Under the pieces are notes generated by a model. The model searched no databases and was not told the DNA's origin. It saw only the letters and a program-made list of their open reading frames with translations. Shown piece by piece: positions 1-7,057 of a stretch of DNA of 7,057 nt; the first letter of the stretch is position 1; each line of letters opens with the position of its first letter. This stretch comes from Phycisphaerae bacterium (GTDB lineage Bacteria; Planctomycetota; Phycisphaerae; Tepidisphaerales; Tepidisphaeraceae): assembly GCA_014380825.1 (NCBI GenBank), contig JACMJD010000689.1:1-7057 (forward strand). Reading direction: 5' to 3'. Both the position numbers and the translations under genes were made by a program.

Positions 1-904
1 CGCCGGCTGACAGCTTCGGGTTGTTCGTGCGAAGACTGATGGCCAGACGACTTTCGTGAACCGCAGTCGTCAACGACCACTGCACTTTGTCAAAGCGCAG
101 CAGGAAGTCCGCGAGCACGGCGGGTTTCTCGAGCGAATCGATCGTGCCAAGATGCGAGATCATCGCTTGATCAAAGTATGTCGCGGTCGACAGCGCGGTC
201 GCGTATGCCTGGTAATAGCTCTGCGGCAGATCGACGTAACGCATCTGATACAGCTTGTGCGTGTCGGCGATCAGCGTGAGGCTGGACAGCGCCATCTGAT
301 CCAGCGTGGCCGGCGTTCCCGCGGCGCCGGCGAGATCGCTTTCGATCGCAAAGATCAGCGTCGCGCCAAGCTCCGGCGAGATCTTTTCTTCCAGCTCCAT
401 GAAGTAACTGAAAATGATCGAGCTGGTCGCGCCGACTTCCGGCCGGATATCGCAGAACGAGCATTTCAGTTTTCGCCCGCGCGATGTGTGATGATCGATC
501 ACCGCGGTCGGCACGAGGCCAGCGGGCAGCGGGCTGTACGCAAAGGTCGGCTGCGCATCGAGCAGGATGATCGCGTCATAATCTTTGAGCGCCGAGTCGT
601 TCCACGGCACGACGCTCAGCGGCGTGTGGCGCGTGAACGCGTCGTTGATCCCGCCGCCGATCTGTCCCTTGATCGACATGTCGATCGTTGCGTCTTTCAA
701 TCGCGATCTGAGCAGAGTGCAGAGCGCCAGGCTGCTGGCGAGCGCATCCGGGTCCGGATGGATATGCGTGGTGACTAGGATCTTCTTTTTGTCCGCGAGC
801 AGGCGCAGCAGCTTGCGCGCACGTGGCTTGCCACGAGCTTTGCGGTCAACGGCCGCGGCTTTGCCGGCGGCGGTCTGCACGCATGATTCAACGAACGCGG
901 TCAT
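1..904 (-). CDS. DHH-family phosphoesterase (NrnA/RecJ-like), 3' end beyond window
   Basis: The frame is open from an ATG at 904-902 to the left window edge: 301 codons with no stop, so the C-terminus is missing. All four DHH-superfamily motifs are visible: motif I HIHPDPDAL (D51, D53), motif II ILLDAQPT (D116), motif III VIDHHTS (D137-H138-H139) and motif IV ESDLAGA (D190). In this family these residues bind the divalent metals that hydrolyse phosphodiester bonds in nano-RNA, cyclic dinucleotides or pAp. Residues 225-301 match the linker and the beginning of a DHHA1-type substrate domain; the glycine-rich GGGH motif that normally closes DHHA1 would lie outside the window. The first ~40 residues (basic, Ala/Lys/Arg-rich) precede the usual fold start. 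No signal peptide or membrane segment is seen, so the protein is presumably cytosolic. Family assignment is firm; the exact substrate (oligoribonuclease versus c-di-AMP/pAp phosphatase) cannot be decided. A GGAGG lies 16 nt before the ATG, too far to be a normal ribosome site. This gene contains none of the repeats that fill the operon upstream. Confidence 0.9.
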   Translation of the reverse strand, partial: MTAFVESCVQTAAGKAAAVDRKARGKPRARKLLRLLADKKKILVTTHIHPDPDALASSLALCTLLRSRLKDATIDMSIKGQIGGGINDAFTRHTPLSVVPWNDSALKDYDAIILLDAQPTFAYSPLPAGLVPTAVIDHHTSRGRKLKCSFCDIRPEVGATSSIIFSYFMELEEKISPELGATLIFAIESDLAGAAGTPATLDQMALSSLTLIADTHKLYQMRYVDLPQSYYQAYATALSTATYFDQAMISHLGTIDSLEKPAVLADFLLRFDKVQWSLTTAVHESRLAISLRTNNPKLSAG

Positions 905-1010: not shown

Positions 1011-1065
1011 GTGTAGCCCCGCCGCTTGCGGCGGGTGAATCCCGCTGCAAGCGGCGGAGCTACAC
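1011..1065. repeat. Intergenic 55-bp palindromic (REP-like) element
   Basis: The two 25-nt arms (1011-1035 and 1041-1065) are complementary at 23 of 25 positions around a 5-nt loop TGAAT. The core is CCGCCGCTTGC facing GCAAGCGGCGG. It lies 15 nt past the dnaE2 stop. On the minus strand the hairpin is followed by AAAAA and not by a U-run, so it is not a standard intrinsic terminator, although it could still stabilise the 3' end of the operon mRNA. The rest of 905-1079 shows only the promoter described separately. Confidence 0.8.
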
Positions 1066-1079
1066 GGGAGGTGACGCGA

Positions 1080-4000
1080 TCAGTGAAAGTCCCGCGAACT
1101 GAGCTCAAAGCCACGAATCAGCTCACTTCGATCAAACATCCGCTTCGCCATCACATGCACGACCTGGCCCTGGCGCTCGATGTAGCCATCGCATTGGAGC
1201 AAGCCCGCATGACGGGCGGCGGCGCGGTACGTGTCGAACGTGTTCGGACGAACGATCAGGTTCACCACGCCGGTTTCGTCTTCCAGTGTGATAAACACGA
1301 TGCCCGAAGCCGTGCCGGGCCGCTGACGGATCAACACCAGGCCCGCGACTTTCACCCAGCGACCGTGGGGTAGATCGTTCGCGTCGTGCGCGGTGAGGAT
1401 TTTCTGAGCGGTCAACGTGTCGCGCACGAGGGCCACCGGATGTTTCTTCAGCGACAGGTGCGTCGTCGAATAATCGGTCATCACTTCCTGACCCAGCGGC
1501 ATGATGGGAAGCTCAACTTCGGATTTCGGATTTCGGATTTCGGGATTCCCGAAAAGTTCGGGCGCATCATCGTGAAGTTCGATCGCTTGCCAAAGCGCCT
1601 GGCGGCGAGACAGATCGATCGATCCATACGCGTCGGCCTCGGCGAGTCGCTCGATTGCTTTGCGAGAAAGTTGCGTGAGATGTTGGAACTGCTCGACCGA
1701 TTCGAAACGGTTCGTGGTTGCGCGCGATCGCGCCTCGACGATGCGATGGGCGAATTCTTCGCGGAAGCCTTTGATCTGACGAAAGCCAAGACGCACGCAC
1801 GGACCGTTCAATCCCCAAGTAGTTTTGTCGTCTTGTCCCTTCGCCCCGTACTCGGGGAGAGGGCCAGGGTGAGGGGTCTGCGCGTACTCGCGTCTTCGCA
1901 ACAGCGAAGAGTCTTCGCGCAGCGTCGACCCCTCACCCCAACCCTCTCCCGGCGTAACGGGCGAGGCAGCAAGCGTGCAATTCCACTCGCTCTCATTCAC
2001 ATCAACCGGCAGAACGGTCACACCATGTTCTTTCGCATCGCGAACGATCTGCGCCGGCGCGTAAAAACCCATCGGCTGACTGTTCAACAGTGCGCAGCAG
2101 AACACAGCCGGGTGATGTCGTTTGAGCCAGCAGCTTACGTACACCAGCAGTGCGAACGACGCCGAGTGTGATTCGGGAAAACCATATTCGCCGAAGCCCT
2201 GGATTTGCTCGAATGTTCGCTCGGCGAAGTCTTGTTCGTAGCCGTTCTTGATCATGCCTTCGATGATCTTCTTATGAAATCCAAGGATCGCGCCGCTGCG
2301 TCGCCACGCCGCCATCGCGCGGCGGAGCTGATCGGCTTCATCCGCCGTGAACGACGCCGCGACCATCGCGACTTTCATCGCTTGTTCCTGAAACAGCGGG
2401 ACGCCCAGCGTCTTGCTTAAGACACCCTTGAGCGCTTCACTCGGATACGAAACGGCTTCTTCGCCGTTTCGTCGTCGCAGATATGGGTGGACCATGTTGC
2501 CTTGAATCGGACCCGGTCGCACGATCGCGACTTCGATCACGATGTCGTAGAAGTTTCGCGGACGAAGACGTGGGAGCATGGACATCTGCGCGCGCGATTC
2601 GATTTGGAAGACACCGATGGTGTCCGCGTCGCAGATCATGTCGTAAACAGCGGGATCGTCGGGGGGGACAGTATGTAACTGATAGCGCCTTCCTTCGTAG
2701 CCACGATCGCAAGATCGTGGATTCAGACCGCGTAATGGGTCCACCATCTTGCGATCGTGGCTACGAGGTGCTTCCAGCAACTTGAACGCTTTCGAAATGC
2801 ACGTGAGCATCCCGAGCGCGAGCACATCGACTTTGAGCAACCCGAGTTCTTCGATGTCATCCTTGTCCCATTCAACCACAGTCCGATCTTCCATGCTCGC
2901 GTTTTCGATCGGGACCATCTCACACAACGGTCCGCGACACATGATCATTCCACCCGTGTGTTGACCGAGATGGCGCGGGAAACCGAGCATTTCCGCGACG
3001 AGCGCGACGACTCGTTGCACCGTCGGATCGCGCCCGTCGATACCGGCTTCTTTCAATTGGTCGGGAGACAGCGTTCCACGATGCCACCAGTCCAACCGCT
3101 TGGCGAGCGAATCGACCGTGTCGACCGACATGCCCATCGCTTTGCCCACATCACGCACCGCAGAGCGGCCGCGATAGGTTATCAAAGTCGCGGTCATGCC
3201 CGAGCGATCGCGTCCATACTTCTGATAGACGTATTGAATGACTTCTTCACGGCGTTCGTGTTCGAAATCGACGTCGATATCGGGTGGCTCGTTGCGCGCA
3301 GCGGAGACGAATCGTTCAAACAGCAGATCGACTTCGGCGGGATTGACGCTGGTGATGCCGATGCAATAACACACCGTAGAGTTAGCGGCTGAGCCACGGC
3401 CTTGACAGAGAATGCCGCGCGCGCGGGCGAACTTCACGAGATCGTAAACAGTTAGGAAATAGGCTTCGTAACGCAGTTTCTCGATGAGCTGAAGTTCATG
3501 CACGATCGCGGCGCTCACTCGTTCTGGAATTCCTTGCGGATATCGTTCCGCAGCGCCGCGCCAAGCGAGATCGGTGAGAAATTGCAGCGGTGTTTGTCCC
3601 TCAGGCACGACTTCATCCGGATATTCATATTTCAACTCGCCCAAGCTGAAATCACACCGCTCGGCGATCTCGATCCCGCGTCGAATCGCCTGTGGATGAT
3701 CAGCAAACAGCCGATGTATCTGCTCGGGCGATTTGAGATATCGCTCGCCATTCGGGAACAACTTGAATCCCGCATCGTGGATTGTGCATTTGTGATGAAC
3801 ACAGGTGAGCACATCTTGGAGCGCGCGACGACCCGGATCGTGATAATGAACCGCGTTGGTCGCGAGGAGTGGAATGTGCGTTGCGCGACTGAGGTCGACC
3901 ATGCGACGAAGATGCGAGTCATCGTCAGCGCCATAAACGCGCGAAACAGTGAGCGAGAGACGATCACCGAGCGCATCACGTAAATAGTCGATCGCATCTC

Positions 4001-4484
4001 GATGATTGCTTGCGAAACCGCCCCTCGACAATGCTCGGGGCAGGCAAGCGGCAGCAGCGATCAGTCCAACACTGTGCGCGACGAAATCATCGATCGACAG
4101 CTCGCATTTCCCTTTTTCGACGCGCCGTTTTCCCAACGTCAGCATTCGACACAACCGTCCATACGCAGCGCGATCGGTTGCCCAGACAAGCAGATCCGGT
4201 CCATCGGTCAGCGGGATTCGCGAACCGATCAGCAGCTTCATCTTGCAGCTTTTCGCGGCAGCATGCGCACGGACGACACCGGCCAAGGTGTGATGATCCG
4301 TGATCGCGATCGCGCGGTAACCCAGCTCGGCGGCGTTGTAGACCAGCTCGTCCGGATGGCTCGCGCCGCGCAAAAACGTGAAATTGCTGGTGACGTCCAG
4401 CTCGGCGTAGTCGAGGTCGCAATGCGCGACACGCGTTGGTGGCGGCAAGGGTTCGCGGGATTTTGGATCAGGGGATTCGGGCAT
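1080..4484 (-). CDS. dnaE2: Error-prone DNA polymerase III alpha subunit DnaE2 (ImuC)
   Basis: DnaE2 is the catalytic C-family polymerase of the ImuA-ImuB-DnaE2 mutasome, which carries out mutagenic lesion bypass. From the ATG at 4484 the protein is 1134 aa. The PHP domain covers roughly residues 26-260 (YAELDVTSNFTFLRGASHP, ITDHHTLAG with D63). The palm carries PDIDVDF with catalytic D404 and D406, and KVD with D553, close to E. coli PolIII alpha D401/D403/D555. PGPIQGNMVHP and FQEQAMKVA mark the fingers region, SRKAIERLAEADAYGS is the helix-hairpin-helix, and an OB fold occupies about 1030-1134. The C-terminus ELSSRDFH is typical of DnaE2. Three repeat-derived inserts (residues ~574-597, ~840-883 and ~976-990) make it longer than the usual 1030-1090 aa. 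An in-frame TTG at 4523 would add 13 residues read from a dispersed repeat, so ATG 4484 is preferred, although neither start has a clear Shine-Dalgarno sequence. The gene lies 123 nt downstream of imuB and is presumably co-transcribed with it. Confidence 0.95.
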   Translation of the reverse strand: MPESPDPKSREPLPPPTRVAHCDLDYAELDVTSNFTFLRGASHPDELVYNAAELGYRAIAITDHHTLAGVVRAHAAAKSCKMKLLIGSRIPLTDGPDLLVWATDRAAYGRLCRMLTLGKRRVEKGKCELSIDDFVAHSVGLIAAAACLPRALSRGGFASNHRDAIDYLRDALGDRLSLTVSRVYGADDDSHLRRMVDLSRATHIPLLATNAVHYHDPGRRALQDVLTCVHHKCTIHDAGFKLFPNGERYLKSPEQIHRLFADHPQAIRRGIEIAERCDFSLGELKYEYPDEVVPEGQTPLQFLTDLAWRGAAERYPQGIPERVSAAIVHELQLIEKLRYEAYFLTVYDLVKFARARGILCQGRGSAANSTVCYCIGITSVNPAEVDLLFERFVSAARNEPPDIDVDFEHERREEVIQYVYQKYGRDRSGMTATLITYRGRSAVRDVGKAMGMSVDTVDSLAKRLDWWHRGTLSPDQLKEAGIDGRDPTVQRVVALVAEMLGFPRHLGQHTGGMIMCRGPLCEMVPIENASMEDRTVVEWDKDDIEELGLLKVDVLALGMLTCISKAFKLLEAPRSHDRKMVDPLRGLNPRSCDRGYEGRRYQLHTVPPDDPAVYDMICDADTIGVFQIESRAQMSMLPRLRPRNFYDIVIEVAIVRPGPIQGNMVHPYLRRRNGEEAVSYPSEALKGVLSKTLGVPLFQEQAMKVAMVAASFTADEADQLRRAMAAWRRSGAILGFHKKIIEGMIKNGYEQDFAERTFEQIQGFGEYGFPESHSASFALLVYVSCWLKRHHPAVFCCALLNSQPMGFYAPAQIVRDAKEHGVTVLPVDVNESEWNCTLAASPVTPGEGWGEGSTLREDSSLLRRREYAQTPHPGPLPEYGAKGQDDKTTWGLNGPCVRLGFRQIKGFREEFAHRIVEARSRATTNRFESVEQFQHLTQLSRKAIERLAEADAYGSIDLSRRQALWQAIELHDDAPELFGNPEIRNPKSEVELPIMPLGQEVMTDYSTTHLSLKKHPVALVRDTLTAQKILTAHDANDLPHGRWVKVAGLVLIRQRPGTASGIVFITLEDETGVVNLIVRPNTFDTYRAAARHAGLLQCDGYIERQGQVVHVMAKRMFDRSELIRGFELSSRDFH
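1520..1551. repeat. Short tandem repeat (CGGATTT x3) inside dnaE2
   Basis: Three exact copies of the 7-mer CGGATTT occupy 1520-1540. They run into the small palindrome CGGGATTCCCG at 1541-1551. In dnaE2 the stretch reads GNPEIRNPKSEV, at a linker between the helix-hairpin-helix and OB regions. A similar IR-P-like repeat (AIRHPKPAIRN) occurs in imuB at about 6065-6110, which suggests one dispersed repeat family; dispersal elsewhere in the genome was not tested. Confidence 0.7.
1838..1966. repeat. Palindromic element inserted in frame in dnaE2
   Basis: The core arms 1855-1878 and 1927-1950 are complementary at 21 of 24 positions. Weaker outer arms extend to about 1838 and 1966, and an inner hairpin pairs TCTTCGC with GCGAAGA around 1893-1910. 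With these bounds the element is 129 bp (43 codons). It reads PVTPGEGWGEG at one end and TPHPGPLPEYG at the other in the dnaE2 frame. From memory, GEGWGEG/PHPGPLP peptides are frequent translations of dispersed palindromes in PVC and other environmental genomes. The edges are approximate. Confidence 0.8.
2695..2766. repeat. 72-bp palindrome inserted in frame in dnaE2
   Basis: The arms 2695-2715 and 2746-2766 are perfect 21-bp inverted repeats, and pairing continues imperfectly to about 2725/2736. Each arm is itself palindromic: CCACGATC-GCAA-GATCGTGG at 2701-2720, with a counterpart at 2741-2760. The element is exactly 24 codons. It adds the peptide RSHDRKMVDPLRGLNPRSC and flanking residues about 20 residues after catalytic D553, in a loop that is short in other family members. 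Confidence 0.85.
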
Positions 4485-4498
4485 TGGTGTGAAATGAG

Positions 4499-4599
4499 CA
4501 ATGACCAAGGTCGCAATGACCAATCAATGAATAAGCACCAAGCACGAATTTTGGGTTTGGTCATTGCTCATTGATTGGTCATTGATCCTTGATCATTGG
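4499..4599. repeat. Imperfect palindrome filling the imuB-dnaE2 gap
   Basis: A perfect 17-bp inverted repeat (4514-4530 and 4568-4584) extends outward into imperfect arms reaching about 4499 and 4599. The sequence is rich in the word CAATGACCAA and its complement TTGGTCATTG. It covers most of the 123-nt space between the imuB stop and the dnaE2 ATG, and it would encode the N-terminal extension MVIATLVIAHF if the TTG at 4523 were used. No promoter, U-run or Shine-Dalgarno sequence is evident in it. Confidence 0.75.
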
Positions 4600-4607
4600 T
4601 TATTCCC

Positions 4608-6422
4608 TCATTCAAATTCTCCATGCACAAACCATTTTCCCGTTTCCTGCACACGAAACACCCAGAACCGCTGTCCTGACTTTTCGTCTTCAACGTCGAA
4701 GTAATCCCGCGTCTTATCGTGTCCGCGCCACCATTGACCGGCGATGCGCTCAGGGCCGATGGAGTGGGACAGGCGGTGCGTCGCGCCGCCATAGCTTGGG
4801 CGGGAGAACTGGATTGGAAAACCATCGGCATGATCCGATGGTGAGACGGTCACCAAAATCTCTTCAGGCCAATCGAACAAGTGAAGCGGACGAAGTTCGT
4901 GGCATGGGCGCCTCGCCCATGCATTTATCGCTTGAGCGCCGGGCGCATGGGCGAGGCGCCCATGCCACGTGAATGCGTACTCCGGCACATGCGATTCGAT
5001 CGGCTCCGCCTGCGCGACTGTTTCCTGTCCCATCCGCACGCTCAGCCGCTCGATCAGGTGATCCAGCTCGATCTCGCCGGCGAATTCTTCGTGTTCGAGC
5101 AGCGCGATCTGCTCATCGCTGACGCGCTGGGCGCTGGTGACGATCAACTGGATGCCAAGAAATCCGACATCGGTCTCGACCGTTTCCATCGCGCAGCGAA
5201 GTAGGTTGAACAGATTCACCGGATCGCGGCTCGGACGAGACAATCGAATCGATTTGTACAGCGTGACCGCGTAAGGCCGAAAGAATTCCACGTCGATCGC
5301 TCGGGCGCCGCAACCACGTTTGAGCAGGTCGGCCACGATCGTTTTCAGCAGCGTTTTGAAGACCAGCCAGATCGCTTCGAGCGAATCGACCGAGCCGTCG
5401 AAATCCATCCGCGCGCTGATGGGCGAAAATGGTTCCAGCGGCACAAGCGGCTCGGCGATGCGACCGAACGCTTGATCGATGCGAAGCAATAACTGCTGAC
5501 CGAATCTCGCCGGCAACGATTCGCGCGGGAGTTTGGTGAGCTGCCCGATCGTCGTCAGACCCAGGTGGTGCAATGATTCGACGATTGTCTCATCCAAGCG
5601 AAGTGCTGAAGGACGGAGTTCGAGCAGGGCGTTGTGCAGCTCATCTTGCTCGACGATCGCGTCTTGATGCTTTGGCGAAAATGTGAGCGCCCACGCCGCG
5701 GCAGGATTCGGTGCGACGGTCAGATGTGCGGTGATGCGAAATCGATCGAGTGCATCGCGCACGCGCGGGATGATTTTATCGATCCCACCGAATACGCGTT
5801 CGCAACCGGTGAGGTCGAGGAAGAGACCGTGGTTTTGTATTGCCGCAAGCGGCGAAACAATCGGTGAGAAGCGCATCATCCATCGAGCGAGCGCTTCAAG
5901 TGCAATCGCATCTCGATACGGTTCGTGCGATGCATGCTTCACCGTCGCATCGAGCGCACGGGCTTCGCTTAATGTCATCCCGGGACGAATACTCTTCGCG
6001 CGGGCCGCATCATTCACAGCGACGATCAGTTCGCGCTGCGCGATGGGTTGAACGAGAACCAGAGCATTGCGGATCGCGGGTTTCGGATGGCGGATTGCAG
6101 GATCGGGAGCGAATCCGGATGCGAGCGATGCGCTGGGTTTTGTCAGGTTCTTCTTCGGTCGCTCGATCCAGACTTGATGTGACCAGCGACGAACTCTAGC
6201 AGGGGCAATTCTTTGTTTGTTGTACGAAACGGATCCGAGTCTTCGGAGTATCTCAGACCCGGCGTGTGAAGCGGACGCGATCGCATTTCCAGTTATTCTG
6301 CATTCTTCATTCTGCATTCTGCGTTCAGACTCACGCTGTCGCGCGAGTTGTCGCCGGAAGCGGTCGATCGGCCAGTTGCTCAAGCGTACGCAGAGGATGG
6401 ACTTGGATGCTGTTGGTTTCAC
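4608..6422 (-). CDS. imuB: ImuB, catalytically inactive Y-family polymerase-like mutasome subunit
   Basis: ImuB is the scaffold that links DnaE2, ImuA and the sliding clamp in mutagenic lesion bypass. The start is a GTG at 6422-6420 with GGAG seven nt upstream, giving 604 aa. The N-terminus SILCVRLSNWPIDRF is the palm start with the first metal-binding Asp absent. IRPGMTLSEARAL (~146-157) and GLFLDLTGCERVFGG follow; the Ser-Ile-Asp-Glu motif of active Y-family enzymes is replaced by Gln-Asn-His-Gly just before LFLDLTG, so the catalytic acids are missing, as is normal for ImuB. A helix-hairpin-helix (LTKLPRESLPARFG) and a little-finger-like region come next. The ImuB-specific C-terminus is intact (GPERIAGQWWRG, RDYFDVEDEKSGQRFWVFR, KWFVHGEFE). 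Two repeat-derived inserts, about residues 31-118 and 485-509, explain its length above the usual ~480-540 aa. I do not see a clear clamp-binding motif. The 5' end overlaps imuA by 92 nt in another frame. Confidence 0.93.
   Translation of the reverse strand: MKPTASKSILCVRLSNWPIDRFRRQLARQRESERRMQNEECRITGNAIASASHAGSEILRRLGSVSYNKQRIAPARVRRWSHQVWIERPKKNLTKPSASLASGFAPDPAIRHPKPAIRNALVLVQPIAQRELIVAVNDAARAKSIRPGMTLSEARALDATVKHASHEPYRDAIALEALARWMMRFSPIVSPLAAIQNHGLFLDLTGCERVFGGIDKIIPRVRDALDRFRITAHLTVAPNPAAAWALTFSPKHQDAIVEQDELHNALLELRPSALRLDETIVESLHHLGLTTIGQLTKLPRESLPARFGQQLLLRIDQAFGRIAEPLVPLEPFSPISARMDFDGSVDSLEAIWLVFKTLLKTIVADLLKRGCGARAIDVEFFRPYAVTLYKSIRLSRPSRDPVNLFNLLRCAMETVETDVGFLGIQLIVTSAQRVSDEQIALLEHEEFAGEIELDHLIERLSVRMGQETVAQAEPIESHVPEYAFTWHGRLAHAPGAQAINAWARRPCHELRPLHLFDWPEEILVTVSPSDHADGFPIQFSRPSYGGATHRLSHSIGPERIAGQWWRGHDKTRDYFDVEDEKSGQRFWVFRVQETGKWFVHGEFE
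4898..4969. repeat. 72-bp palindrome inserted in frame in imuB
   Basis: Perfect 25-bp arms (4898-4922 and 4945-4969) flank a 22-nt loop. The arms contain CATGGGCGCCTCGCCCATG, which is itself palindromic. The element is 24 codons and supplies the peptide WHGRLAHAPGAQAINAWAR plus a few residues, between the HVPEYAF segment and the RPLHLF segment of ImuB, which are normally joined by a variable linker. It is open in at least three of the six frames. Confidence 0.87.
6065..6115. repeat. Degenerate GCGGAT-type repeat in imuB
   Basis: Related words (GCGGATCGCGG, TTTCGGATGGCGGATTGC) recur here and read DPAIRHPKPAIRNA in ImuB. The stretch resembles the CGGATTT repeat inside dnaE2 at 1520-1540. It forms the distal end of the extra segment near the ImuB N-terminus, just before the conserved strand LVLVQP. 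The copies are degenerate and the bounds approximate. Confidence 0.5.
6231..6250. repeat. Small hairpin within the ImuB N-terminal insert
   Basis: TCCGA at 6234-6238 faces TCGGA at 6243-6247 around GTCT. It reads as part of GSEILRRLGSVSY in ImuB, within the segment (residues ~31-118) that has no counterpart in the family as I know it. It may be a remnant of another palindromic element; evidence is slight. Confidence 0.3.
6295..6328. repeat. ATTCTGC tandem repeat in imuB, next to the imuA stop
   Basis: ATTCTGC-like 7-mers are repeated here (ATTCTGC, ATTCTT, CATTCTGC, ATTCTGC, then a degenerate GTTC). In ImuB the stretch reads ERRMQNEECRI. It begins immediately downstream of the imuA stop codon (6331-6333 on the plus coordinate) and opens the ~88-residue insert of ImuB. 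From memory this is a commonly dispersed motif in environmental genomes; no search was possible. Confidence 0.65.
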
Positions 6423-6936
6423 GGTGATGCTCCAGGATGACGGCGGTTCCGACTTGTCCTCCGTGACCGTGAATCAGTTCGATCCTCCATCGTTGAACCG
6501 TCCGCAACCCGCGCTGCGGTGAAACGAGCCAGCGCGTGGTGGCGGAATAAATGTTGGCGGTGCGATCGTACGGGCGCAGCAGAATACCGATGCCTTTGCC
6601 GCGTTCGGCGGCAAGTTGGAAACGCCGCGCTTCGATGCGCGATAATCGTCGAGGCGATGCGATCGTCGCGATCACGCCTCGGCATCGCAGACATTCCGCG
6701 ATCGCCCAGTTCTCATCGGGAATCGTTTTCGGCCGCAACAAGAACAACCGATCCAGCGGCACACCCATCGCTGCGACGGCGGGGGGATAAAGCTTGCCTT
6801 GCGGATCACACCAGACGATCGCGCCGCGAAGATTGTTGGAACCGCAGATGGACGCCGATGGACGCGGATTAAAATTCAATTGTCCACGAATGGACACTAA
6901 TGAACACGAATCAGAATTTGATTTATTCGTCTTCAT
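6331..6936 (-). CDS. imuA: ImuA (SulA/RecA-like mutasome subunit), 5' part missing or disrupted
   Basis: ImuA is the RecA-like accessory subunit of the mutasome. Conserved ImuA sequence runs from GAIVWCDPQGKLYPPAV (~38-54) through LDRLFLLRP, WAIAECLRCRGVIATIA, RRFQLAAERGKGIGILLRP (~105-122) and RWRIELIHGHGG to the stop at 6333-6331. The N-terminal ~80-100 residues expected in the family, including the nucleotide-binding-like region, are absent. Instead residues 1 to about 35, from an ATG at 6936, are read from a dispersed repeat (NPRPSASICGS), and an in-frame TAA lies upstream at 6966-6964 within the opposite arm of the same repeat. No Shine-Dalgarno sequence precedes the ATG. Either a repeat has split the gene, or the true 5' part was lost in assembly at the fold-back described for 6779-7057. 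Family assignment is good; the start shown is only nominal. The 3' end overlaps imuB by 92 nt. Confidence 0.75.
   Translation of the reverse strand: MKTNKSNSDSCSLVSIRGQLNFNPRPSASICGSNNLRGAIVWCDPQGKLYPPAVAAMGVPLDRLFLLRPKTIPDENWAIAECLRCRGVIATIASPRRLSRIEARRFQLAAERGKGIGILLRPYDRTANIYSATTRWLVSPQRGLRTVQRWRIELIHGHGGQVGTAVILEHHRETNSIQVHPLRTLEQLADRPLPATTRATA
6430..6433 (-). promoter_or_regulatory. Ribosome binding site of imuB
   Basis: GGAG at 6433-6430 is seven nt before the GTG at 6422-6420 and lies inside the imuA coding region. It supports the GTG as the true imuB start, because the encoded N-terminus SILCVRLSNWP is the conserved ImuB beginning and no ATG in that frame precedes it closely. Confidence 0.6.
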
Positions 6937-7057
6937 TCGTGTCCATTCGTGGACAATTGAATTTTAATCCGCGTCCATCGGCGTCCATCTGCGGTTCCAA
7001 CAATCTTCGCGGCGCGATCGTCTGGTGTGATCCGCAAGGCAAGCTTTATCCCCCCGC
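6779..7057. repeat. 279-bp inverted repeat at the window end (dispersed repeat plus copied imuA sequence)
   Basis: Positions 6779-6897 and 6939-7057 are perfect reverse complements (119 bp each). Pairing continues inward with single mismatches at 6898/6938 and 6905/6931 to a loop at about 6912-6924. The inner part, about 6839-6997, is a dispersed-repeat palindrome with words such as GATGGACGCCGATGGACGCGG and TCCACGAATGGACAC. The outer ~60 bp of the left arm are conserved imuA codons (GAIVWCDPQGKLYPPA), and the right arm repeats them inverted up to the last base. Such an extension into unique coding sequence is what a fold-back assembly error at a palindrome would produce. Confidence 0.9.

Follow-up and report, generated by a model that had tools for sequence, protein, structure and literature searches.

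Repeat elements carried in frame by the mutasome genes of a planctomycete contig, and an S23-encoding element that recurs in one DnaE2 loop of its relatives

The DNA considered here (hereafter the window) is a complete contig of 7,057 nucleotides from a Tepidisphaeraceae-like planctomycete, and protein homologue searches place the closest relatives of its DnaE2 and ImuB in organisms of the same kind. The minus strand carries the 3′ part of imuA, followed by imuB, dnaE2 and a DHH-family gene (Table 1), and palindromic or tandem repeats lie both between these genes and inside them, where they lengthen DnaE2 and ImuB without closing the reading frame. A strict inverted-repeat scan of the window found five palindromes, one of which is the suspect contig end described below, as compared with none in each of five Markov shuffles. 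An Rfam scan of the window returned nothing at gathering scores.

There are three inserts in the window DnaE2, and all are confirmed by repeat scans, by the open frame and by alignment with homologues. The first (2695-2766) adds 24 amino acids and has arms of 27 nucleotides that are 96% complementary. The second (1838-1966) adds 43 amino acids between imperfect arms of 52 nucleotides, and it was missed by a stricter detector because these arms are only 75% matched. The third, at 1518-1543, is a tandem array and not a palindrome. A GTAG tag ends the short palindromes that are paired head to head at 2695-2766 and at the intergenic site 1011-1065 (TCGTAGCCACGATC... and GTGTAGCCCC..., joined to inverted partners). 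In an AlphaFold2 model of the window DnaE2 (mean predicted local distance difference test score, pLDDT, 73.1), residues 588-610, 858-896 and 991-998 score below 50 and coincide with the three insert sites. The model has 18 segments below 50, and of those inside the chain the two larger inserts are the longest, with the caveat that inserts without aligned homologues score low in any case.

At the two larger DnaE2 sites, close relatives have either another occupant or none at all. The protein P0001, which is 88% identical to the window DnaE2 in its best segment, has a stretch of 162 amino acids at the first loop. In P0002 the first loop is short, the second lacks the palindrome peptide and the third holds a similar heptad-like peptide; P0002 is therefore an orthologue free of both larger inserts, of the kind that the original prediction proposed to look for. 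The perfect palindrome of ImuB (4898-4969) is likewise a real insert that adds 24 amino acids in frame. A diverged copy is present in P0122 and none is recognisable by eye in P0123-P0128, and the insertion is therefore probably older than the split from P0122.

Six insert sites had been claimed from the sequence, and the four just described hold. The original prediction also treated ImuB 6071-6332 as a single insert, which is right only in part: two short heptad arrays flank a middle section (RVRRWSHQVWIERPRKNL) that is recognisable in the relatives P0122-P0124 and P0128. The insert proposed for the 5′ end of imuA is confounded by the contig end and is not confirmed. Its palindrome belongs to a 133-nucleotide inverted repeat (6779-6911 and 6925-7057, 98% matched) that mirrors imuA coding sequence and runs up to the final nucleotide, and the match to the ImuA model does not start before position 65. 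The protein database places the ImuB of the window on a contig of the same 7,057 nucleotides, and as the repeat stops exactly at the end of that contig, this feature is a probable assembly fold-back at a natural palindrome. The claim that conserved sequence flanking the inserts stays in one frame is borne out, as dnaE2 and imuB are open throughout and homologues align on both sides. The dnaE2 frame begins at a TTG, and the true start is probably downstream at MPESP..., judging from the alignment consensus MPExPxP. The reported freedom of the DHH gene from elements is true in the strict scan, yet it is expected at the background rate.

Table 1. Genes and repeat features of the 7,057-nucleotide window
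Feature	Coordinates	Strand	Evidence
DHH-family gene, palindrome-free	2..904	-	PF01368; strict inverted-repeat scan
GTAG palindrome, intergenic, between dnaE2 and DHH gene	1011..1065	.	inverted-repeat scans
dnaE2, error-prone DNA polymerase	1080..4523	-	NF004225, 1440.9 bits
heptad array TTCGGAT x 3.7 (1518-1543), third dnaE2 loop, aa about 991-1001	1518..1551	.	tandem repeat scan, alignment, model
imperfect palindrome, second dnaE2 loop, aa about 853-896, peptide GEGWGEG...PHPGPLPEY	1838..1966	.	repeat scan, alignment, model
GTAG-tagged palindromic dimer, dnaE2 hot loop, aa about 586-610	2695..2766	.	repeat scans, alignment, AlphaFold2 model
palindromic TTGGTCATTG array, imuB/dnaE2 gap, most likely intergenic	4493..4605	.	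inverted and tandem repeat scans
imuB, Y-family-like	4608..6422	-	PF00817; 1297 homologues at E 0.001
perfect palindrome in imuB, 25-nt arms, 100%	4898..4969	.	inverted-repeat scan, alignment
degenerate heptad array in imuB	6069..6105	.	tandem repeat scan
heptad array ATTCTGC x 4.6 in imuB	6295..6326	.	tandem repeat scan
imuA, 3′ part, 5′ end unreliable	6331..6936	-	NF033429, 59.2 bits (cut-off 150), model 65-171
133-nt inverted repeat at contig end: decamer palindrome (about 6842-6994) and mirrored imuA sequence	6779..7057	.	repeat scans

Inserts at these loops are common among relatives. When the query and the best 120 of 7,999 DnaE2 and of 1,297 ImuB homologues were compared, 98 of 121 DnaE2 and 78 of 121 ImuB proteins had at least one internal insert, defined as at least 8 amino acids relative to a core of 50% occupancy, a definition that also counts ordinary loop-length variation. 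The inserts are grouped at a few recurrent loops, and many of the longest peptides read like translated inverted tandem arrays (for example RRHEGTEARRHEG...SCLRASVPSCL). Different repeats occupy the same loops among relatives, which supports the proposal of repeated colonisation by unrelated elements.

The complete chromosome of one relative (G012, 7,189,892 nucleotides) was sampled in 60 stretches of 20 kb (1.2 Mb), with genes predicted by an in-house codon-score caller. There are 183 palindromes in this sample and six in its shuffle. They are intergenic in 117 cases, partial in 42 and inside predicted genes in 24, of which six have good coding support on both sides; hosts in the sample include PriA, PheS and LptD-like proteins. 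The coding sequence predicted in the sample, which contains those 24, amounts to 943 kb, whereas the dnaE2-imuB-imuA genes of G012 hold five palindromes in about 7.1 kb, where 0.18 would be expected (Poisson P 1.4e-6). Four of these five recur at 16-20 other places in the sample, although three of the four are ImuB palindromes that are mutually related and whose places overlap; the fifth has no other place in the 1.2 Mb.

For the nine window elements, a search of family DNA (2.2 Mb, counting loci that overlap) gave no match for six, a single place for one and eight places for each of two, 1838-1966 and 4898-4969, in seven other family loci. The GTAG elements of the window have no relatives in these 2.2 Mb; a different GTAG family (GTAGGGTCCGCC...) accounts for 16 palindromes in the G012 sample. 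The RAYT transposase family PF01797 is found in 26 of 26 family genomes, and GTAG palindromes lie near its match in only 3 of 30 loci.

The inserts thus lie in frame and in loops, the larger sites are empty or differently filled in close relatives, and related types are multicopy in the chromosome of a relative. We favour the reading, with a probability of roughly 0.8, that they are copies of dispersed palindromic or tandem repeats which have come to lie in frame at a small number of DnaE2 and ImuB loops, yield additional and probably disordered peptide on translation, and persist because the loops tolerate them. The original prediction of translated, tolerated peptide insertions at loops therefore stands as regards frame and location, and the inserts look tolerated, whereas translation and tolerance themselves are steps that we infer.

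The first DnaE2 loop, where the window has its GTAG dimer, is of particular note in relatives. In G003, G009, G012 and G026, its long occupant holds a complete gene of family PF05635 (S23, the 23S-rRNA-intervening-sequence protein) that is read one frame off dnaE2. The dnaE2-resident gene matches this family with an E value of 1.2e-33, and it was also found in a genome search. The peptide that the host frame encodes across the S23 gene (the antiframe peptide) scores above 130 bits in 24 of the best 120 DnaE2 homologues, always at alignment core 567-577. There are 45 DnaE2 proteins with any antiframe match, and 21 of these were dropped: 20 score at most 50 bits, and P0018 (92 bits) matches in another loop and falls to 4.7 bits with a narrower model. 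Five ImuB matches of 14-37 bits were also dropped.

When the antiframe region was searched against the database together with its arms and about 13-15 flanking DnaE2 residues per side, 70 proteins were listed, the query among them, and every one has the C-family polymerase domains PF07733 and PF17657. Eight of the 70 cover at most 20% of the query, as flank or arm matches. Among the 49 newly listed proteins, 43 have at least 120 amino acids between the motifs that flank the loop. At the level of the class, the antiframe peptide is matched in 43 of 397 genomes (47 matches). Thirty of these matches were retrieved as loci; the other 17 include open reading frames (ORFs) of 1083, 1517 and 1382 amino acids. 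There are 16 S23 genes inside dnaE2 among the 30 loci, all within window residues 583-621 and all with the same strand and phase, whereas the other 14 loci are not of this type. These 16 cases known from DNA overlap in part with the 24 proteins, since at least G026 is in both.

In the 16 dnaE2 cases there are no stops in 1,929 codons of the host frame, as compared with 106 in the same number of codons of the third frame. Free S23 genes, read in the host-equivalent phase, have 204 stops in 6,767 codons. The antiframe search also returned sequences with stops, and none of those retrieved lies within a DnaE2 ORF. As read from these sequences, one stretch of DNA keeps two frames open, that of the S23 gene and that of dnaE2 in another phase. 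In six of six pairs identity is higher in the S23 frame than in the host frame, which marks the S23 gene as the conserved product to a greater degree than the peptide of the host frame. In a less biased sample, a PF05635 search of the family genomes gave 87 matches in 22 of 26 genomes; four are in dnaE2, and the host is open in all four.

The scattered presence of the element could reflect a single ancient S23 insertion in dnaE2 that was inherited vertically and lost many times, with no homing. Strand and phase are constant in dnaE2, as such descent would have it, and a single clade of 20 takes in all 16 dnaE2-resident S23 proteins known from DNA (SH-aLRT 96, from few columns and a quick search). 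This clade also holds the copies from an ImuA-like ORF and an amidohydrolase and two copies outside dnaE2, which speaks against the proposal. S23 marks 27 of the 136 leaves of a DnaE2 core tree, a distribution that takes 22 changes (mean 24.9 and minimum 20 in 500 shuffles), or 46 losses if there was only one gain. S23 proteins that are further apart tend, weakly but detectably, to have DnaE2 hosts that are further apart (Mantel r 0.15, p 0.04, n=27; r 0.32, p 0.009, n=16), which indicates some vertical inheritance. Antiframe peptide distances proved too saturated for this comparison, and S23-frame proteins were used instead.

Close pairs of hosts divide on the same question. Two pairs retain S23 in both members. 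However, the near-sister hosts L391 and L406 (DnaE2 distance 0.13, S23 distance 0.53) carry S23 genes of different subclades, with heptad arms in one and octad arms in the other, and P0040 and P0043 likewise differ in arms and antiframe peptide; the pair L396 and L415 is less discordant (DnaE2 distance 0.12, S23 distance just 0.36). We consider a single ancient insertion unlikely, if still a serious contender. The pattern would be better accommodated by repeated insertion or replacement at one tolerant and preferred loop combined with vertical descent, presumably with a step of transposition or homing.

There are 71 S23-like ORFs at 67 loci, including weak, fragmentary and antisense matches, and 46 of them have flanking inverted repeats, whereas among 57 control genes of comparable length, all taken from G012, one has them. 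The period of these arms is 7 or 14 in 30 cases, 8 or 16 in eight, 6 in one and unclear in seven. Unit sequences vary between elements (L316-L382, L158) and the period persists, being mostly 7, and mostly 8 in dnaE2. In 44 of 46 cases G outnumbers C in the 5′ arm, and this arm is mostly purine in 36. In dnaE2 itself, inverted arms are found in 16 of 16 elements by a search with looser settings; the two weakest have arms of 15-16 nucleotides, and the best period is 8 or 16 in 14, one of them weakly.

Four of the 30 retrieved loci have the S23 gene in other hosts with the same phase, namely an N6/N4 DNA methyltransferase in two genomes, an amidohydrolase and an ImuA-like ORF. The methyltransferases (L394 1484-1852 in G184 and L409 1478-1867 in G220) align through the insert, which lies at the corresponding place in both, and this gene is possibly a second preferred site. 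A fifth host with the same phase is a GNAT-like ORF of G018 (Acetyltransf_7, slightly below cut-off). Arms are present in four of these five elements, and none were found in L409 at the looser search settings. In L394, a second and different S23-like ORF (2220-2783) directly follows the S23-bearing methyltransferase ORF. In L411 (580-1914, G088), an octad-arm S23 element lies inside or just upstream of the ImuA-like ORF (NF033429, 75 bits, cut-off 150).

Arms without an S23 gene also occur. GCAGTAC arms are common to one S23 element and four S23-less palindromes of G012 (92-100% over 24-38 nucleotides, best segment each). Beyond chance matches of 8-10 nucleotides, the four solo palindromes have no interior similarity to the S23 element, and since arms are shared and interiors are not, a reading of the solo copies as deleted derivatives is not demonstrated. 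A reverse transcriptase as obligatory partner of S23 was also considered and is not supported, as RVT_1 is present in only 15 of 26 genomes and none was found in the S23-carrying G009 and G010 (these genomes may be incomplete).

One possibility is that S23 (Avd-like) genes within inverted arrays of 7-8-nucleotide units form a ‘frame-transparent’ class of mobile element, able to invade protein-coding genes because its own gene stays intact and the host can still be read through it in another phase, with one lineage homing to a single DnaE2 loop across Phycisphaerae, and that S23-less palindromes of mutasome genes, such as the heptad arrays of the window, are by-products of the same machinery. 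This is a tentative proposal that we hold at somewhat less than even odds; both homing and the descent of S23-less palindromes from S23 elements are steps that we infer from sequence comparison.

Mutasome genes might be targeted for reasons of function or induction that go beyond mere tolerance. Rates of strong palindromes (arm at least 24, score at least 19) across family genes bear on this idea in both directions. They are high in ImuB (7 in 22.0 kb, 0.32/kb) and ImuA (2 in 6.4 kb, 0.31/kb), and there are none in PolA (54.3 kb) or in DnaE1 (29.5 kb; nine ORFs, not counting the very long ones from G018 and G019). DnaE2 and repair genes are also named as hosts in the available text of PMC3733652. 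However, ValS, whose set may include paralogues, is hot as well (9 in 44.0 kb, 0.21/kb), DnaE2 has only 3 in 60.1 kb (0.05/kb), UvrA has 1 in 47.6 kb, and PriA, PheS and other genes also carry inserts. The mutasome is therefore enriched in palindromes but is not alone, and loop tolerance may suffice, which makes targeting for function rather improbable.

Long members of two of these families were seen. The ValS open frames of L303 (G022) and L306 (G021) reach 1617 and 1475 amino acids with palindromes inside, other full ones being about 935-1137, and in many genomes the ValS profile match is interrupted near 365-377 and near 568, which suggests hot loops. Similarly, DnaE1-like ORFs of 1649 (G018:C23) and 1691 (G019:C356) amino acids, as compared with about 1250 in most relatives, suggest DnaE1 inserts in some genomes. 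Alphaproteobacterial ImuB was tried as a clean outgroup and rejected, because it has 4-11 palindromes in 117.7 kb depending on threshold, some of them CGTC-REP-like (REP, repetitive extragenic palindrome). Palindromes with the look of CGTC-type REPs are seen in the Sphingomonas imuB loci L034, L043 and L074. These alphaproteobacterial palindromes suggest that the permissiveness of imuB may extend to phyla that are far apart.

Several points weigh against the reading of dispersed elements in tolerant loops and against its extension to S23. The window contig has no S23 gene. The protein counts are skewed by the choice of the best 120 homologues and would not register split genes; the antiframe query favours S23 genes in that single phase. 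The arm controls come from one genome, and the looser arm search in dnaE2 had no control of its own. The solo palindromes of G012 do not resemble the S23 element in their interiors. Palindrome rates shift with the threshold, DnaE2 itself is poor in strong palindromes, and alphaproteobacterial ImuB has four even at the strong setting. Ordinary drift may account for some of the variation in the loops.

Perhaps the element is instead an insert of the intervening-sequence (IVS) or intron kind that is removed at the RNA level, with RNase III cutting its stem as in 23S rRNA, so that the peptide is never made. The architecture is the same as that of the 23S IVS, in which an S23 ORF lies within an inverted-repeat stem, as described in the available text of PMC4990558. 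Excision would free an insert from any need to stay open in the host frame, yet there is no stop in the 1,929 host-frame codons, which makes this explanation very unlikely. In addition, an mRNA cut by RNase III would be left in two halves. Ordinary loop-length drift and low-complexity slippage with no mobile elements at all, which would fit the variable loops and those inserts that are simple heptad arrays, is scarcely credible given the long, near-perfect inverted arms that are missing from the shuffles, the multicopy families across the chromosome of G012 and the full gene inside some elements.

The preferred reading, of repeats dispersed into tolerant loops, would work as follows. Repeat elements would land in frame in loops of DnaE2 and ImuB, and inserts would persist because any peptide without a stop is acceptable there. 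These loops are used by at least two kinds of element, namely REP-like GTAG-tagged palindromic dimers such as 2695-2766, and inverted arrays of 7-8-nucleotide units. In what would be the complete form of the second kind, a PF05635 gene sits between the arms, and it is this form that is found repeatedly in the DnaE2 loop of relatives. The restriction to loops and the open phase are best accounted for by selection after insertion together with a preference for the DnaE2 site, with a putative transposition or homing step.

The intragenic elements of the window are of a known kind. The available text of Di Nocera et al. (2013, PMC3733652) describes intragenic GTAG and CGTC REPs, many of them in replication and repair genes, with DnaE2 and uvrA named. 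Because comparable cases, DnaE2 included, were published there, the idea of intragenic REPs is not new, and of the suggestion of open-reading-frame-permissive elements with a precedent in Rickettsia palindromic elements (RPEs) it is the analogy that is supported and not the novelty. As in the window, those REPs are palindromic repeats, often dimers, inside genes, with the same GTAG tag as 2695-2766, and one case of about the same site is given, in recB of two Xanthomonas species; unlike here, that text as available describes no hot loop shared across a family, no inverted arrays of 7-8-nucleotide units and no inner S23 gene. RPEs, according to the same source, are also palindromic inserts in frame in unrelated proteins. 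The window elements similarly combine in-frame insertion in ORFs with insert-free orthologues, and they differ from RPEs in sequence and phylum. We know of no RPE that carries a gene in an overlapping frame.

The dnaE2 element is closest to the 23S IVS, for example that of Coxiella, which also has an S23 ORF (PF05635) between inverted repeats in a tolerant loop, and whose functionality and origin are unclear and mobility a hypothesis in the portion of PMC4990558 available. It differs in that it sits in a protein-coding gene and leaves the host frame open, where the IVS sits in 23S rRNA and is excised, and in that its arms are tandem arrays of 7-8-nucleotide units. PF05635 resembles Avd, the protein of diversity-generating retroelements, which is essential for retrohoming according to the available text of PMC10053308. 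The Avd-like model PF22296 also matches S23, below its cut-off. Unlike Avd systems, no linked reverse transcriptase is shown here, with RVT_1 in just 15 of 26 genomes. Inteins and self-splicing introns likewise occupy the same site of a polymerase gene recurrently, as the S23 element does; a Pfam scan of the five insert-bearing hosts other than dnaE2 found no splicing domain. If the solo arrays of G012 are viewed as miniature inverted-repeat transposable elements of the S23 element, their terminal repeats are the same (GCAGTAC) and their interiors show no sign of derivation from the full element.

Among the literature matches listed (titles and abstract openings, mostly without subscription papers), none concerns S23 elements inside protein-coding genes. 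Whereas the intragenic elements of the window are of a known kind, S23-encoding frame-transparent elements that recur in one DnaE2 loop are a new variant. They link the 23S IVSs to the palindromes of protein-coding genes, that is, to RPEs and intragenic REPs, and they show how repeat DNA can fill loops in repair proteins and in essential ones while the frame is preserved. In gene annotation, they help to explain the variation in length of DnaE2, ImuB and ValS in this lineage of soil planctomycetes. Finally, the recurrence of S23 within inverted-array elements at one DnaE2 loop, with two open frames, offers a testable system for the mobility hypothesis of 23S IVSs.

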